A DNA stretch of 64,000 nt from Dehalococcoidia bacterium (GTDB lineage Bacteria; Chloroflexota; Dehalococcoidia; DSTF01; JACRBR01). Position 1 is the stretch's first letter. Each line of letters opens with the position of its first letter. Positions 43,348 through 50,201 of the stretch are shown in pieces. The stretch spans positions 106,042 through 170,041 of the forward strand of contig JAJTXQ010000014.1 of assembly GCA_021462855.1 (NCBI GenBank), given 5' to 3'. The notes under the pieces are model-generated. The model saw only the letters and a list, made by a program, of their open reading frames with translations. It ran no database searches and was not told the origin of the DNA. Position numbers and translations under genes: made by a program.

Positions 43348-44409
43348 TCAACTCGCCCGGACAACCCCTAACCCCGGCTGTGCCTGCAGCAGCCAACGGC
43401 AATCCTCACCGAGCTTCGTGCCCGTGAACGGGTCGTCGGCCAGCAGCAGGCAGCCGTCGAGGTCGACCCAGTCGGCGAGCGAGGCGACCGCGGCCGAAGC
43501 GGTGATCCCGACCAGCGTCTCCTCCATGCAGCCGAGAAAGCGCCTGAACCCCAGTTCGCGCGCGCGTTGCAGCATCCGCAACGCGGGCCCGACGCCGCCG
43601 CACTTCGCCAGCTTGACGTTCACGCCGGCGACCACGCCGACAAGCCTGTCGAGGTCGTTGACCGTCACCGCGCTTTCGTCGGCGACGATTGGAAGCGGCG
43701 ACCGCTCCTGCAGCCACGCGAGCTGGTCGAGGCGGTGCGCCGGAAACGGCTGTTCGACGAGTTCGACGCCCAGCTCGACGAGCGCCGGAAGCAGGCGCAA
43801 CGCCTCCTCCGGCTGCCAGGCTGTGTTCGCGTCGACCCTGATCGGGCCATCGAACCGGCGTCGCACGGCCTGGACCGTCGCCAGGTCGTGCGGCCCGCCG
43901 ACCTTCACTTTCAGCGCCGGGAAGTGCGCGGCCGCCGCGGCGCGGTCCGCAACGACGGATGGTTCATCCAGCCCCAGCGTGAAGTCCGTCGGCGGCACAT
44001 CGCGCGACGTCCCAAGCAACTCGTACAGCGGCACGCCAAGTTGCTTCGCCGCCAGGTCGTGGAGCGCGATATCGAGCGCGCATTTCGCGGCGCCGTTGTG
44101 GCCGAGCCTCACGTCGAACGCGGCGGCGGCAGCGCGCAGCGAGCGCCGGGCGCTGGCGATGTCACGCACGACGAAGGCAACGCCCTCCAGGGCCTCGATC
44201 AGCAGCGGAAACACGGCGACCATGGTGTCCGGCGTCTCCCCGTAATAGGTATCCGGGAAGCCCTCGCCGAGTCCGCAGTGTCCCGGCCAGTTCGTGTTGG
44301 TCAGCTCGACAACGACCGTGCGCGCCTGGTGCGCATCGAAGTCCCGCGCGATGCGAAACGGGTTCCGCAACCGCAGGGAAAGCGTCTCGTGACGCAGCGA
44401 CCACGTCAT
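43348..44409 (-). CDS. dgcA: Dipeptide epimerase/N-acyl amino acid racemase-like enolase-superfamily protein (DgcA-like)
   Basis: 353 residues from an ATG overlapping the DUF1611 stop by four bases. It is an enolase-superfamily barrel: catalytic lysine pair ALKVKVG (Lys167, Lys169), metal ligands Asp193 (RVDANTAW), Glu219 (LVEQPF) and Asp244 (VADES), and the second catalytic lysine in NVKLAKCGG. This is the L-Ala-D/L-Glu epimerase subgroup layout, which also contains DgcA, an N-acetyl-D-glutamate racemase. A DUF1611 gene directly upstream supports DgcA. The gene symbol is by homology and context. Confidence 0.8.
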   Translation of the reverse strand: MTWSLRHETLSLRLRNPFRIARDFDAHQARTVVVELTNTNWPGHCGLGEGFPDTYYGETPDTMVAVFPLLIEALEGVAFVVRDIASARRSLRAAAAAFDVRLGHNGAAKCALDIALHDLAAKQLGVPLYELLGTSRDVPPTDFTLGLDEPSVVADRAAAAAHFPALKVKVGGPHDLATVQAVRRRFDGPIRVDANTAWQPEEALRLLPALVELGVELVEQPFPAHRLDQLAWLQERSPLPIVADESAVTVNDLDRLVGVVAGVNVKLAKCGGVGPALRMLQRARELGFRRFLGCMEETLVGITASAAVASLADWVDLDGCLLLADDPFTGTKLGEDCRWLLQAQPGLGVVRAS

Positions 44410-45491
44410 GCGGGTTGACCCCCGAGCTGCTGCCGGATGGCGGCAAAGAGATCGTCTCCGCCAAACCGGAACGGGTCGGCCGCGGGTAACCCCACTTCGT
44501 CGGATACGGCGGCGATGATCTCTCGCGCCTCGGAATCGTCGGCGTACAACGACGTGTTGAGCGCGATCGCCACCACCTTCGATGGCGCAACGAGATTGGC
44601 GACCGTCTCGTGCGCACGAATGAACGCCGGCAGCGGCTTCAGCGGGTCCTCGTAGGCCGGCCAGTGGCTGCGATACAGCCTGCCGGGTTGGTGCACCATC
44701 ACCATCGCCTGCGGCGTCGCGCCGTGGATGAGGCCAACGGTGACGGAGGAATAGGCCGGGTGGTCGAGCGACCCCTGCCCCTCCACGAAGATCCAGTCGC
44801 CGCGCGCCTCCGCCTGCTCGACGAGCCACTCCACCGTGCCCTGGACGAAGTCCGCGGCGACGCGGTCAATCGTCACCCCCCACCCGGCGATCATCATGCC
44901 CGTCTGGCCGGTCGGGACGAACACCGATTGCACCCCTTGCCGCCGCGCCGCGTCCGTCAGTTCGAGCGCGACGCTCATCTTTCCGAGCGCGCAGTCGGTC
45001 CCGACGGTCAGGATCACCTGCTTGCCCGGCAGGTGCCGCCTGCCGGAGGAGATCTCCATGCGTTCCGGCGGGCGCCGCAGATCGACCAGGCGCCCCCCGC
45101 TCGCTCCGGCCAGCGCCGCGAACTCGGGGTCGTCGGCCAGGAACAGGTGCAACCCGCTCACCACATCGAGGCCACAGCGCAGCGCCTGCGAAACGATGCC
45201 TCGCCACGATGCGGGCAGCTTGCCGCCGGCTGGAGCGATACCGACGAGCAGCGTGTCCGGCGGCTCCGCGAGCGCCAGCGCATCGTCGAGTGACCCCACG
45301 AACGGGACATCGCGATATCGCGGATCGTCGCCCATGAACTCGCCGACGCGGCGGCCGGCGAGCGTCGAATCAATCACAGCGCGCACCGGATCGGGGCCGT
45401 AGCGCAATACCCCGCGCGCCGTCTTCGACGTCTCGCCCGCGAACTCGCCCTCCGCAAGGATCACGAGGCGTCGCGCCCCCGGTTCAGTCAT
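44406..45491 (-). CDS. dgcN: DUF1611 protein (DgcN-like N-acyltransferase)
   Basis: 361 residues. The N-terminal half has a Rossmann-like start (LVILAEGEFAG, KTARGVLRYGPD). The C-terminal half has a P-loop GTDCALGKM at 164-172, followed by VALELTDAARRQGV, which is characteristic of DUF1611. A member of this family, DgcN, has been described as a D-glutamate N-acetyltransferase acting with the racemase DgcA. The ATG at 45491 lies about 38 bases after a plausible promoter start. With the next gene it should convert D-Glu to N-acetyl-L-Glu. Confidence 0.8.
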   Translation of the reverse strand: MTEPGARRLVILAEGEFAGETSKTARGVLRYGPDPVRAVIDSTLAGRRVGEFMGDDPRYRDVPFVGSLDDALALAEPPDTLLVGIAPAGGKLPASWRGIVSQALRCGLDVVSGLHLFLADDPEFAALAGASGGRLVDLRRPPERMEISSGRRHLPGKQVILTVGTDCALGKMSVALELTDAARRQGVQSVFVPTGQTGMMIAGWGVTIDRVAADFVQGTVEWLVEQAEARGDWIFVEGQGSLDHPAYSSVTVGLIHGATPQAMVMVHQPGRLYRSHWPAYEDPLKPLPAFIRAHETVANLVAPSKVVAIALNTSLYADDSEAREIIAAVSDEVGLPAADPFRFGGDDLFAAIRQQLGGQPA

Positions 45492-45781: not shown

Positions 45782-46219
45782 CTACGCCGGCTGCGGGACG
45801 ACGAACTTCGTCTCGATCTCCGCCGAAGCGTTGAAGAACTGCTGGAACGTCTGGCCGTAGCGGTAGAACTTGTCCTTCTTGGTCTGGTCGTCCGACCGCG
45901 CGAACCCGTCCGGATCGACGAAGTCGATGCTGTTGAGCGTGTGCTGGCGGTCGGGCGCGCCGTTCTTCTTGATGTTCTCGATCATGTCGCGCCAGGTTTC
46001 GTACGGCGCCTCGAGGTAGAAGTCGGTGCTCGCGAGGTCGGCGACCGCGATGTTTCTCGCGCCGGTGCACTCGAAGGCATCAAAAGTGATCTCGAACGCC
46101 TTGTCGCGCACCTTCACGCCCATGACGGCGTCACACGTGCCGAACCGGTGGAGGCGGCCGTCGCGATTGACGACCTGCCGGACCGCCTCGAACCACTCGA
46201 GCGAAGGAAACTCAGCCAC
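45782..46219 (-). CDS. SCP2-like small protein (tentative)
   Basis: 145 residues, starting at GTG 46219 after AAAGGA. The pattern LEWFEAVRQVVNRDG followed by strands VMGVKVRDKAFEITFDAF and a helix ETWRDMIENIKK looks like a sterol-carrier-protein-2 fold, which binds fatty acids or sterols, but identity is tentative. The C-terminus has a distinctive FYRYGQTFQQFFN. It follows the ferritin-like gene with only 16 bases between and is likely co-transcribed. It may present or hold the lipid substrate of the ferritin-like proteins. Confidence 0.5.
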   Translation of the reverse strand: MAEFPSLEWFEAVRQVVNRDGRLHRFGTCDAVMGVKVRDKAFEITFDAFECTGARNIAVADLASTDFYLEAPYETWRDMIENIKKNGAPDRQHTLNSIDFVDPDGFARSDDQTKKDKFYRYGQTFQQFFNASAEIETKFVVPQPA

Positions 46220-46235
46220 GATTCGTTCCTTTCAA

Positions 46236-47450
46236 CTAGACGGACTGGTGCGCGGCCAGCGCGGGCCAGATCGTGCCACGGTGGTCCAGGCCCGCCGCCT
46301 CGACGCGGTCGAGGTAGCTCTGGATCTGGCGCGCGCGGAACGTCTTCAACTTCTGGAAGCCCTCGCCGATGTGCTCGAGGCCGCCGCCGAGGAGGATCGC
46401 GAGCGCTTCGCGCGACGACGGGTCATCGGCGAAGTCCTTCGCCAGGTACTCCTCGCCCTTCTGCAGGTAGCGGCGCACCTCTTCGCGCCGCTCCGGCTGG
46501 TGTTCGAGGAGGTAGCGCATGTGCTCGACGCCGTACGAAAGGTGACGCGCCTTGTCCTGCGCGGCGAGCGTGAACAGGCGCGCCTCCGCCTCGTTGTGTC
46601 CCAGCGCGCCGCCCAGTTGGTACAGCGACTGCACGAAGCTGTCGTTCAGGACGAACACGAGCGCCGCCATCTCCGAATAGCAGAGCGCATCGCGGATCGG
46701 CGCGAGCTGCCAGCCGACGCCCTGGACGCCGAGCCGGCCACCGTTGCACAGGGCGCGCTTGCGGAACGCCTCGAAGTGCCGCGCCGCGTCGAAGAGGACG
46801 GTCGAGAGGTACAGCTTCACCTCGTGGTATCCGAAGCTCACCTCACGGATCCACTTGCCGAGCGCGAGGATCACCATGTAGTTGTACTCGCACAGCGCGG
46901 TGCAGAGCTGGCCCATGGCCCGCTCCCGGTCCTCGGACAGCGGAGCGATGGTCTCCCACGGGATGTCGGTCGCCGGCGCCCAGCGCCGCTGGATCGCTTC
47001 TTCGTACAGCGACCCCACGTTATCCGCCCACACCTCGGCTTTGGCGTAGATCGTGTACCCCATGCTCACGGTGCCGGGCTTCACGTAGGAACCGCGCGGG
47101 CGCATCGTCTGGTCGGGCCACACATCGGGCACATCCGCGTATGACCCGACGTTGATGTCGTCGATCGTCAGGCCCTTCTTGCCGGGCCGTGCGCGGATGC
47201 CACGCTCGGTGTCGACGCGTGCCCACTTCATGCTGAGCTTCTCAACACCCGAGAGCCGCTTGAGGATCACCTGTCGTGCCTCCGCGGGTGTCAGGCCCGC
47301 GTCGAGCGCTTCGTGGATGAGCGCCTCGTCGACGCCTGCCTGCAGAGCGGCGGCGACGACCGGCAACGGCCAGTCCCTGGATTCAGCCTTGCGCCTGAGC
47401 TCGTCGGAGATACTGGCGGTCGCGCGTTCTTCGGCGGTCGTGTCGGCCAT
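46236..47450 (-). CDS. Ferritin-like protein with degenerate metal site
   Basis: 404 residues from the ATG at 47450 (AAGGAGG six bases upstream). It aligns with the next upstream gene over the whole ferritin-like bundle (GLTIDDINVGSYAD, WADNVGSLYEEAIQRRW, ATDIPWETI). At the two ExxH positions it reads FDAARH (222-225) and QDKARH (300-303), so Glu is replaced by Ala and Lys. Helix 3 has Asp270 where the paralogue has Glu219, and one helix 1 position is Asn190. An extra N-terminal helical stretch of about 70 residues (residues 11-68) is absent from the paralogue. It probably cannot hold a diiron centre. Confidence 0.7.
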   Translation of the reverse strand: MADTTAEERATASISDELRRKAESRDWPLPVVAAALQAGVDEALIHEALDAGLTPAEARQVILKRLSGVEKLSMKWARVDTERGIRARPGKKGLTIDDINVGSYADVPDVWPDQTMRPRGSYVKPGTVSMGYTIYAKAEVWADNVGSLYEEAIQRRWAPATDIPWETIAPLSEDRERAMGQLCTALCEYNYMVILALGKWIREVSFGYHEVKLYLSTVLFDAARHFEAFRKRALCNGGRLGVQGVGWQLAPIRDALCYSEMAALVFVLNDSFVQSLYQLGGALGHNEAEARLFTLAAQDKARHLSYGVEHMRYLLEHQPERREEVRRYLQKGEEYLAKDFADDPSSREALAILLGGGLEHIGEGFQKLKTFRARQIQSYLDRVEAAGLDHRGTIWPALAAHQSV

Positions 47451-47497
47451 GTGCATCCTCCTTCGGTCTTCCGGGTTTGTTGGCCTGAACGCCTTCG

Positions 47498-48574
47498 CTA
47501 TCGCTTCTTTGGCGGGTCGAGGAGCATCATGAAGCCCGGGTTCATGCGGTATCGCCGGTCGGCGAGCCCCGCGACTTCCAGGCGGTGCATGTACTCGTTC
47601 GCTTGCTTCTTGGTGAGCGCGAGCGCCATCTCGGCGCCCTTGTCGATGTTGTCCTTGCCGCCACCCATCGTGATCAGGAGCGCTTCCTGCAGGCCCGAGT
47701 TCGCGTCGGACGGGTGGCCGAAGAGCTGCTCGGCGCGGTCGAGGTAGTGGTGGATCTCCTCACGGCGCTCTGGCGCGTGCTGGAGGACGTACCGCAGGTG
47801 CATGACGCCGAAGCCGACGTGCCGCGACTCATCCTGGGCGCAGAGGCGGAAGATCATCTTTTCGGCCTCGTTCTGGGCGATGAACTCGCCGGTGCGGAAC
47901 ATCGTCTGGACGAAGCCCTCCGCCAGCACGTGCATCAGCGCCGACATCTCGGTGAAGTCCTTCGCATCGAGGATGTTGCGGAGCCCGCGCGTCGCGCCCG
48001 TTGCCTCGAGCAGGCCGCAGCCGTTCGCCAGCGCGCGCTTGCGGAACACATCGAGATGGCGCGCCTCGTCCATCACCTGCGTCACGAGGTACAGGGCGAC
48101 CTCGAAGTGGTCGGGGCTGATCTGCTTCAGCCACTGCCCGGGCGCGTCGCCGGCGATGAACTCGACCTCGGTGAGGAAGGTGCAGATCTGGCAGATCGCC
48201 TCCTCCACCTCATCCGGCAGCGGCTCGATCGACTCCCACGGGATGTCCGTGGCCGAGCTCCACTGCCGCTGCAGCGCTTCTTCGTAAATGAGGGTCGCGT
48301 TGTCGGCCCAGATGTCGCTCTTCTCCGGCACGTAGTACCCGGTGCGGATCACGCCGGGCCGGGCAATGGAGCCGCGCACGCGCGTCGTGCCGTGTCGGGC
48401 GACCTCCGGCGCATCTCCGTACACGCCGATGTTGATGTCATCCAGCGTGAGCCCGTGCCTGCCCGGCTTTGCGTTGACCGCCGGAGGCCCCTCGGTGGTG
48501 AGCCAGCTCAGGTCCAGCTCAGGCATGTCAGGCTGCTTGCGCAGCGTCTCGATGACTGCGGGATCGATTGCCAT
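47498..48574 (-). CDS. Ferritin-like diiron protein, intact metal motifs
   Basis: 358 residues from the ATG at 48574, after AGGAGAC. Both ferritin ExxH motifs are present: MDEARH (Glu170-x-x-His173) and QDESRH (Glu249-x-x-His252). Candidate helix 1 and helix 3 ligands are Glu136/Glu138 (TEVEF) and Glu219 (LAEGF). The ligand spacing recalls AurF-type N-oxygenases. The probable role is an oxygen-activating diiron enzyme on an unknown substrate. It precedes the degenerate paralogue by 47 bases, and an inverted repeat lies about 90 bases upstream of its start. Confidence 0.72.
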   Translation of the reverse strand: MAIDPAVIETLRKQPDMPELDLSWLTTEGPPAVNAKPGRHGLTLDDINIGVYGDAPEVARHGTTRVRGSIARPGVIRTGYYVPEKSDIWADNATLIYEEALQRQWSSATDIPWESIEPLPDEVEEAICQICTFLTEVEFIAGDAPGQWLKQISPDHFEVALYLVTQVMDEARHLDVFRKRALANGCGLLEATGATRGLRNILDAKDFTEMSALMHVLAEGFVQTMFRTGEFIAQNEAEKMIFRLCAQDESRHVGFGVMHLRYVLQHAPERREEIHHYLDRAEQLFGHPSDANSGLQEALLITMGGGKDNIDKGAEMALALTKKQANEYMHRLEVAGLADRRYRMNPGFMMLLDPPKKR

Positions 48575-48770: not shown

Positions 48771-50201
48771 TCAGGGTGCAACGGGGAGCACGCGGTCGCC
48801 TCGCCAGATCGGACGCATCTCCCACGCGTGCAGCGCTCGAAGCGCCGCGGGCCCGCCGACCGCGAACGGGCGCACGCCGCGGCTCTCGGGCAGCGTCGGG
48901 TACACGCGGCTGCTGAGGACGACGCGGTCATTGGCAAAGACCTCGATGACGGAGCCGTCGAGAAAGACGCGGAGCGTGAGCGCTTCACCCGGTGCGAGCC
49001 CCATCGGCGCTGCCCGGACATCGCGCGCCGCGCCGGGGTCCAGGCTCGATGCGCTGCGGTCGAGCACCAGCGCCTGCCGAGCGCCGTCAAAGAAGAGGCG
49101 CGTCCGCTCCGCGCCATCGGGCGACTCGAACAGATGCAGCCCGAACTGGCGTGCGCCGCCCGCGGCGAACACCGCCTCGAGCTCGAGCCGCGTGCCGGCG
49201 ATGGCGATCTCGCCGCCTCCGTCGCCCGGGCGCACCGGCACGTCGCGGTAATGCGAATGCGCGCCGCGAAGAGACGTGATCTCGTGGACGGGGCGTACGC
49301 GCAGCGTCCCGTCGCGGTTCATCGAAAGCTCGGTGGGCAGTGACAGCGCGCCCGACCCCCCTGCGGCGACCTGCGCGTCCGCGCCCCGGTTCTCGCGGAG
49401 CCAGCCCCACATCAGCCGGCGTCCCCGGTCGTCCAGCATCACCTGCGGCGCGTAGAACGAGCCGCCCTCGTCCAGCACGGTCGTCTCTTCGGGCACAAAA
49501 CGGTGCGCGCGGTACTCGCCGGTCATGCACAACACGCTGCCCGGGGGGATCGACGATACCAGCAGGACGTGCCGGTCACCGGCCGGGAAGAAGTTCGGGC
49601 ACTCCCACATGTCCCCGGTGTCCTCGCGGTCGCTGATGCACAGCTCGTGCAGGTACTCCCAGCGCACGAGGTCCGGCGACCGGTACAGCAGCACCGCGCC
49701 GCCACGGCCCTTGATGCCCGACCCGATCGCGCAGTACCAGCCATCGTCCTCACGCCAGACGAACGGGTCGCGGAAGCCGCGCACGGCGAGCGACGGCGGT
49801 GGCGCGGCAATCACCGGGTTGTCGCGGCGCCTGGTCCACGCCGCGAGGTCGGGGTCGCCGGGATCGGCGGCCTCTGCCACGCACTGCACCTCGGGGCCGA
49901 TGCCCGTGTAGACCAGCGTCGGTGTCCCGTCGCGGTCGACGGCGCAGCCGGAGAACACGCCGTCCTTGTCGGGCCCTCCGGGGACGGGCGCGAGCGCCAC
50001 CGGCAAATCGTGCCAGTAGACGAGGTCGTCGGAGACCGCGTGCCCCCAGTGAATCGTGCCGTGGAACGCGCCGTTCGGGTTGTACTGGTAAAAGAGGTGG
50101 TAGCGGTCCCGCCAATGAATGAGGCCGTTCGGGTCGTTGATCCAGTTCGCCGGCGGCAGGAAGTGAAACGCCGGACGATGCGGGTCCTCCGGCCGGCTCA
50201 A
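48771..50201 (-). CDS. Glycoside hydrolase family 32 (invertase/fructan hydrolase type)
   Basis: 476 residues. The GH32 motifs are intact: WINDPNG at 20-26 with the nucleophile Asp23, FRDPFVW (Arg144-Asp145-Pro146) with the transition-state Asp, and WEC (Glu200-Cys201) with the acid/base Glu. A C-terminal beta-sandwich follows (from about residue 330). There is no signal peptide, so it acts in the cytosol on sucrose, sucrose phosphate or fructo-oligosaccharide. Start is TTG at 50201 with a weak ribosome site, so the true start is uncertain. The gap 50202-50478 upstream shows no gene. Confidence 0.88.
   Translation of the reverse strand: MSRPEDPHRPAFHFLPPANWINDPNGLIHWRDRYHLFYQYNPNGAFHGTIHWGHAVSDDLVYWHDLPVALAPVPGGPDKDGVFSGCAVDRDGTPTLVYTGIGPEVQCVAEAADPGDPDLAAWTRRRDNPVIAAPPPSLAVRGFRDPFVWREDDGWYCAIGSGIKGRGGAVLLYRSPDLVRWEYLHELCISDREDTGDMWECPNFFPAGDRHVLLVSSIPPGSVLCMTGEYRAHRFVPEETTVLDEGGSFYAPQVMLDDRGRRLMWGWLRENRGADAQVAAGGSGALSLPTELSMNRDGTLRVRPVHEITSLRGAHSHYRDVPVRPGDGGGEIAIAGTRLELEAVFAAGGARQFGLHLFESPDGAERTRLFFDGARQALVLDRSASSLDPGAARDVRAAPMGLAPGEALTLRVFLDGSVIEVFANDRVVLSSRVYPTLPESRGVRPFAVGGPAALRALHAWEMRPIWRGDRVLPVAP

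Follow-up and report, generated by a model that had tools for sequence, protein, structure and literature searches.

The pairing of a catalytic subunit with a dead twin of the same fold is an established principle among diiron oxygenases. In soluble methane monooxygenase (sMMO) and the bacterial multicomponent monooxygenases, the catalytic and metal-free subunits of the hydroxylase (MMOH alpha and beta) share one fold. No dead paralogue or SCP2 partner is known for R2lox or VlmB, which act without such a paralogue. In phenylacetyl-CoA epoxidase (PaaABCE), the catalytic ferritin-like subunit PaaA is paired with PaaC, a structural subunit sharing its fold, and PaaB acts as a bridge (PMC4498308). 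UbiJ shows that an SCP2-fold protein can present substrates to oxygenases: it binds ubiquinone intermediates, which are hydrophobic, and brings O2-dependent hydroxylases together in a complex (PMC6747719).

A locus of three genes, here termed A, B and C, was examined within a 64-kb stretch of DNA from a Dehalococcoidia genome (the window), together with homologues drawn from two sources: 301 genomes belonging to the phylum, and a scan of genomes in GTDB that yielded 80 loci, spread over Chloroflexota (Dehalococcoidia, Tepidiforma and SAR202 among them) and gammaproteobacterial MAGs. The genes form a compact unit with all three frames open, and inspection of the sequence placed a purine-rich ribosome-binding site ahead of each (Table 1). 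A preliminary description of this DNA had noted two adjacent same-strand genes with aligning bundles, followed after 16 bases by a third small gene; both statements were borne out, and the alignment of A with B spans 330 residues (42% identity, E=9e-99). An operon-signal search of the window found no sigma-70-like promoter 5' of A on its own strand and no terminator-like site on the minus strand. Flanking genes, judged by eye, occupy 48771-50201 and 43348-45491 of the window, both on the minus strand; the upstream flank (48771-50201) has the look of a GH32-type glycosidase, and the downstream flank (43348-45491) that of a DUF1611-type protein and a dipeptide-epimerase-like enzyme.

We propose that A, B and C, with a fourth component D, probably constitute a heteromeric O2-activating diiron enzyme resembling PaaA/PaaC, for which we infer the complex, the O2 chemistry, the class of substrate, the role of D and the electron donor. 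The open-access literature searched contained no description of the A-B-C(-D) set and no paper joining ferritin-like, SCP2, diiron and oxygenase; ferritin-like, SAR202 and diiron; or FmdB, zinc ribbon and oxygenase. As far as that literature shows, neither the family nor its distribution has been described, and the same goes for its partners, the SCP2-like and the zinc-ribbon protein.

Table 1. Positions of the components of the locus (window coordinates) and of related genes elsewhere in the same genome
Feature	Position	Strand	Description and basis
A	47498..48574	-	Predicted catalytic diiron subunit, 358 aa; open frame, six invariant ligands, fold of the R2/R2lox/VlmB/MMOH superfamily
A-B spacer	47457..47497	-	41 bases, holds the B ribosome-binding site GAAGGAGG; sequence
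B	46236..47456	-	Metal-dead paralogue of A, 406 aa, N-terminal helical extension; identity to A, ligand loss, dN/dS, one clade
B-C spacer	46220..46235	-	16 bases, holds the C ribosome-binding site AAAGGA; sequence
C	45782..46219	-	Small SCP2-like protein, 145 aa, GTG start; predicted fold, genome co-occurrence with A
D of the same genome	C6:74281-74544		Outside the window
A' (L002/L054)	G000:C64:35109-36197		Lone, adjoins hisB; 59% identical to A
B'-C' (L004/L053)	G000:C36:87868-89349		Together, unlinked to A'

Relationship to known diiron proteins

No curated Pfam or NCBIfam family was reached by A, B or C. The nearest models were those of R2lox, at 29-30 bits for A and B against a cut-off of 194 (29.4 bits for A, with a weak match in 62/62 A homologues), and A scored 11.5 bits against the RNR small chain (PF00268, cut-off 33.6); matches of the 62 A homologues to R2lox, the RNR small chain and AurF were weak only. 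A profile search with A retrieved a VlmB homologue first (6d9f/8wvr, E 1.3e-6) and then R2lox entries, so that R2lox and VlmB/aldehyde-deformylating protein 60 (8wvr, 6d9f) are its nearest relatives by profile, with the same six-ligand layout. The structural model of A (pLDDT 89.7) contains long helices at 121-149, 154-185, 207-232 and 236-266 that carry the ligands, and among solved structures it most resembles RNR R2, VlmB, R2lox and methane monooxygenase hydroxylase (Foldseek, probability 1.00). The model places A in the ferritin-like diiron carboxylate superfamily, with a predicted metal site of the form E/ExxH/E/ExxH on four helices; B would share this fold given its 42% identity to A. 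An assignment of A to R2lox itself was rejected, as the score is far under the cut-off and column 214 is L in 59, M in 29, T in 1 and V in 1 of the A proteins; by R2lox numbering and the ligand spacing, this column (E219 minus 5) is where the Tyr of the Val-Tyr cross-link would be expected.

The preliminary description had taken sMMO as its model. The principle of catalytic and metal-free subunits of one fold stands, and MMOH is among the Foldseek matches of A, but neither A nor B matches that family in Pfam, nothing resembling MmoB or MmoC was seen among the genes beside the annotated loci, and PaaA/PaaC is the closer working analogue. PaaABCE, which acts on a CoA thioester, likewise has a catalytic subunit paired with a ligand-less subunit of the same fold, a small third protein and ligands of the form E/E-H/carboxylate/E-H; it differs in that the small partner here is SCP2-like rather than PaaB, in that a PaaE-type reductase is not linked here, and in the identity within the pair (17% for PaaA/PaaC versus 42% for A/B). 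PF05138 (PaaA_PaaC) gave no match to A or B at E≤1, nor at E≤0.001 to any of their homologues (62 for A, 15 for B), and the genome under study has no member of it. The A-B pair would work like PaaA/PaaC or MMOH alpha/beta while being, by sequence, a member of neither. Among plasmids, one carried by Xenorhabdus (NZ_CP147735.1:62322-62975) encodes a ferritin-like protein distantly related to A (28% identity over 60%), which adjoins an MFS transporter, perhaps in a natural-product cluster; this lone plasmid match is not the A-B-C system.

Linkage, co-occurrence and partner proteins

Of the 76 loci with room for it, 58 have B immediately downstream of A, and of the 51 loci with room after B, 22 contain C. 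Among 294 genomes of the class, A-type genes (found with a profile that at this threshold catches A and B alike, B not being counted separately) occurred in 97 and C in 96, with both in 93, A only in 4, C only in 3 and neither in 194; most of the exceptions are incomplete assemblies. The corresponding Fisher value (2e-67) ignores relatedness and is no true probability; the genomes are largely MAGs and the counts are not independent. Co-occurrence, a check suggested in the preliminary description, was seen for A and B as neighbours in most loci and for A and C across genomes, and the idea put forward there survived its own refuting conditions. Where A and C occur in one genome they are often unlinked, and their presence varies within families (f85, f82, f17 and f10). 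A haem-copper oxidase (COX1) was found in 93 of the 100 genomes with A or C versus 77 of the 194 without, an enrichment that fits O2 dependence, though it would be expected of any aerobic trait. At two loci (L112 and L115, CAMAVY01) a set of gammaproteobacterial type lies on contigs titled Klebsiella pneumoniae, which looks like a mislabelled MAG.

Adjacent B is absent at 18 of the 76 A loci, lone A genes occur in several families, and the second set of the genome under study is split across two contigs, with A' alone on one and B'-C' on the other. These observations, together with the action of R2lox and VlmB without a dead paralogue, would suit a homodimeric R2lox- or VlmB-like oxidase made of A alone, with B and C serving otherwise, for example as chaperone or regulator of A; the unlinked A' and B'-C' and the genomes with a lone A count likewise against a heteromeric enzyme. 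We nevertheless consider it unlikely that A acts alone, given that A-B pairs duplicate and diverge as units. Distances among A and among B proteins correlate (Mantel rho 0.76, with 0 of 2000 permutations as high), and the G226 pair in L036 is nearer, in both genes, to the G218 pairs (L039 and L040) than to the second pair present in that genome. Moreover, A and C stay together in the same genomes whether linked or not, and the column of the R2lox cross-link Tyr is Leu/Met in A.

The identity of C was resolved by the fold search alone. Its model (pLDDT 93.7) found UbiJ-SCP2 as the best solved fold (6h6o; E 0.01, probability 0.99, TM 0.50/0.60), followed by an archaeal SCP2 amid actin-like chance matches; the solved SCP2 proteins matched include 3bn8, and no match reached E≤0.001. 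By sequence, C had no Pfam match and no similarity to SCP2 or UbiJ models, neither C nor any of 33 homologues matched PF02036 (SCP2), and comparison with the PDB returned noise only. The predicted fold gives moderate support for C as an SCP2-fold protein, in agreement with the preliminary description of the small gene as SCP2-like. Compared with UbiJ, its top fold match, C has as partners diiron proteins of another family. A second SCP2-like protein, C', stands in tandem with C and is much more divergent; tandem C and C' genes follow B at L089, L093, L094, L097, L101, L109, L115, L118, L122, L134 and L143. The two resemble a paralogue pair like A and B, and there might be one C-type protein per bundle subunit.

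The preliminary description spoke of a three-gene unit, and in this it overlooked a fourth part, D, whose gene adjoins that of C in 15 loci. The D proteins measure about 91-100 aa and are zinc ribbons of the FmdB type, with two CxxC knuckles and a conserved tail around LDPKYDKMVD; two of them matched PF09723 above its cut-off (8e-11 and 3e-10), and the cysteines are conserved or nearly so in 16. Gammaproteobacteria and SAR202 have the genes arranged as A-B-C-C'-D; in L126, L128 and L144 the arrangement is A-B-D-C. At E≤2.1e-18, D including its tail was found in 45 of the 100 genomes with A or C versus 1 of the 194 without, a count that depends on the threshold, picked after seeing the list, because weaker zinc-ribbon matches occur in most genomes.

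Ligand loss and selection in B

At the columns of the six A ligands (E138, E170, H173, E219, E249 and H252 in A numbering), B has N138, A170, H173, D219, K249 and H252. The earlier reading of this stretch, that both ExxH glutamates of B are gone, a helix-3 Glu is Asp and a helix-1 position is Asn, is exact in every detail. All six ligands are kept in 90/90 distinct A proteins in the alignment, versus a loss of E138 and E249 in 68/68 distinct B proteins; position 138 of B is A, G, N or Q and never E, position 219 is never E, and the helix-2 Glu (E170) survives in 1/68. The glutamate losses are therefore near-universal among B homologues, as the preliminary description had suggested checking, and ligand loss in B is a family property, far beyond chance. 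D169, D248, R251 and W105 are retained in both A and B. B' of the second set (FEGARA) has an acidic residue near helix 2 but lacks the first His.

That B keeps some other metal or cofactor site, or serves as a substrate or sacrificial donor rather than as a scaffold, appears improbable. His173 and His252 are often kept (37/68 and 53/68), and B has conserved residues of its own, such as Tyr255 in 63/68; however, about 30 different ligand strings occur among the 68 proteins, with no common alternative set, and so no single alternative metal site is indicated.

In a tree built with the six ligand columns taken out, one clade unites 32 B rows (SH-aLRT 97) and a second one 19 A rows (SH-aLRT 95); a divergent G122 pair falls outside both, and a topology that puts every B in a single clade is not rejected (p-AU 0.485). 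As a paralogue B is of long standing, with members in both Chloroflexota and Gammaproteobacteria. Its dN/dS against three close relatives (0.20-0.23, compared with 0.09-0.11 for A and 0.15-0.20 for C) indicates that B is under purifying selection and not decaying, and both the tree and dN/dS show it evolving faster than A. Ahead of its ferritin-like core, B has one short helical repeat at its N-terminus (window 47250-47456, minus strand), and B' has two (L053 6518-6900). The sole Pfam match among 15 B homologues was SinI, found in three at these N-terminal repeats, and the match to this dimerisation motif suggests a putative added oligomerisation element.

A reading of A and B as beta and beta-prime RNR small subunits like yeast Rnr2/Rnr4, in which the dead paralogue only helps cofactor assembly, is very improbable. 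RNR R2 is among the nearest folds of A and 5/62 A homologues match the RNR small chain weakly (best E 1e-4), but all such matches are far below the curated cut-off, the genomes carrying A/B-type genes have two to six copies, the genes keep company with an SCP2-like protein, and the neighbourhoods annotated showed no gene for a large subunit. Decay of B as a duplicate of A, its arrangement a local accident, might be read from the many different ways in which the metal site was lost and from the faster evolution of B, but is ruled out by the age of a lineage shared by Chloroflexota and Gammaproteobacteria, a dN/dS of about 0.2 and many invariant residues.

Proposed mechanism and linked genes

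In the heteromeric enzyme that we favour, A would carry the diiron site and do the chemistry. B would be a structural partner with a dead metal site, retained, we propose, for its pairing with A, in the manner of PaaC with PaaA. C would most likely bind and present a hydrophobic substrate or a lipid or acyl moiety, as UbiJ does for quinone hydroxylases, and D, encoded elsewhere in the genome under study, probably aids assembly or electron delivery. The interpretation offered in the preliminary description is supported in part, namely by the ligand loss, the co-occurrence and the fold of C, but not in its limit of three genes or its choice of sMMO as analogue.

More tentatively, the set may represent a new class of multicomponent diiron oxygenase, composed of a catalytic R2-type subunit, a dead paralogue, one or two SCP2-like presenters and a zinc ribbon, that oxidises a hydrophobic substrate delivered by a carrier; in Dehalococcoidia, SAR202 and marine Gammaproteobacteria it would support the aerobic use of carbon or the tailoring of lipids or quinones. 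We consider this possible, with the case for it falling a little short of even. The set recurs in many uncultured bacteria of aerobic habit: about one in three genomes sampled from the class carries it, often in several copies, it is present in SAR202 and Pseudomonadales MAGs too, and it belongs to no curated family. If the proposal is true, it would add an architecture in which an SCP2-fold protein hands the substrate to the diiron pair, and would supply a concrete candidate oxygenase in lineages for which the consumption of recalcitrant organic matter lacks a good explanation.

Clustering of neighbouring genes revealed no constant substrate pathway, and no reductase or constant electron donor was seen linked to the loci. 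A CoA-transferase III occurs at 12 loci and a luciferase-like monooxygenase at 6, with acyl-CoA enzymes, P450 and Rieske ferredoxin beside others; as the linked metabolic genes vary between lineages, no substrate is implied. In a close relative (L067:9075-10677), genes for a cytochrome P450 and a Rieske ferredoxin come next after A-B-C, a possible source of electrons. An A-B pair is also carried by a cultured organism, Tepidiforma flava (L104).
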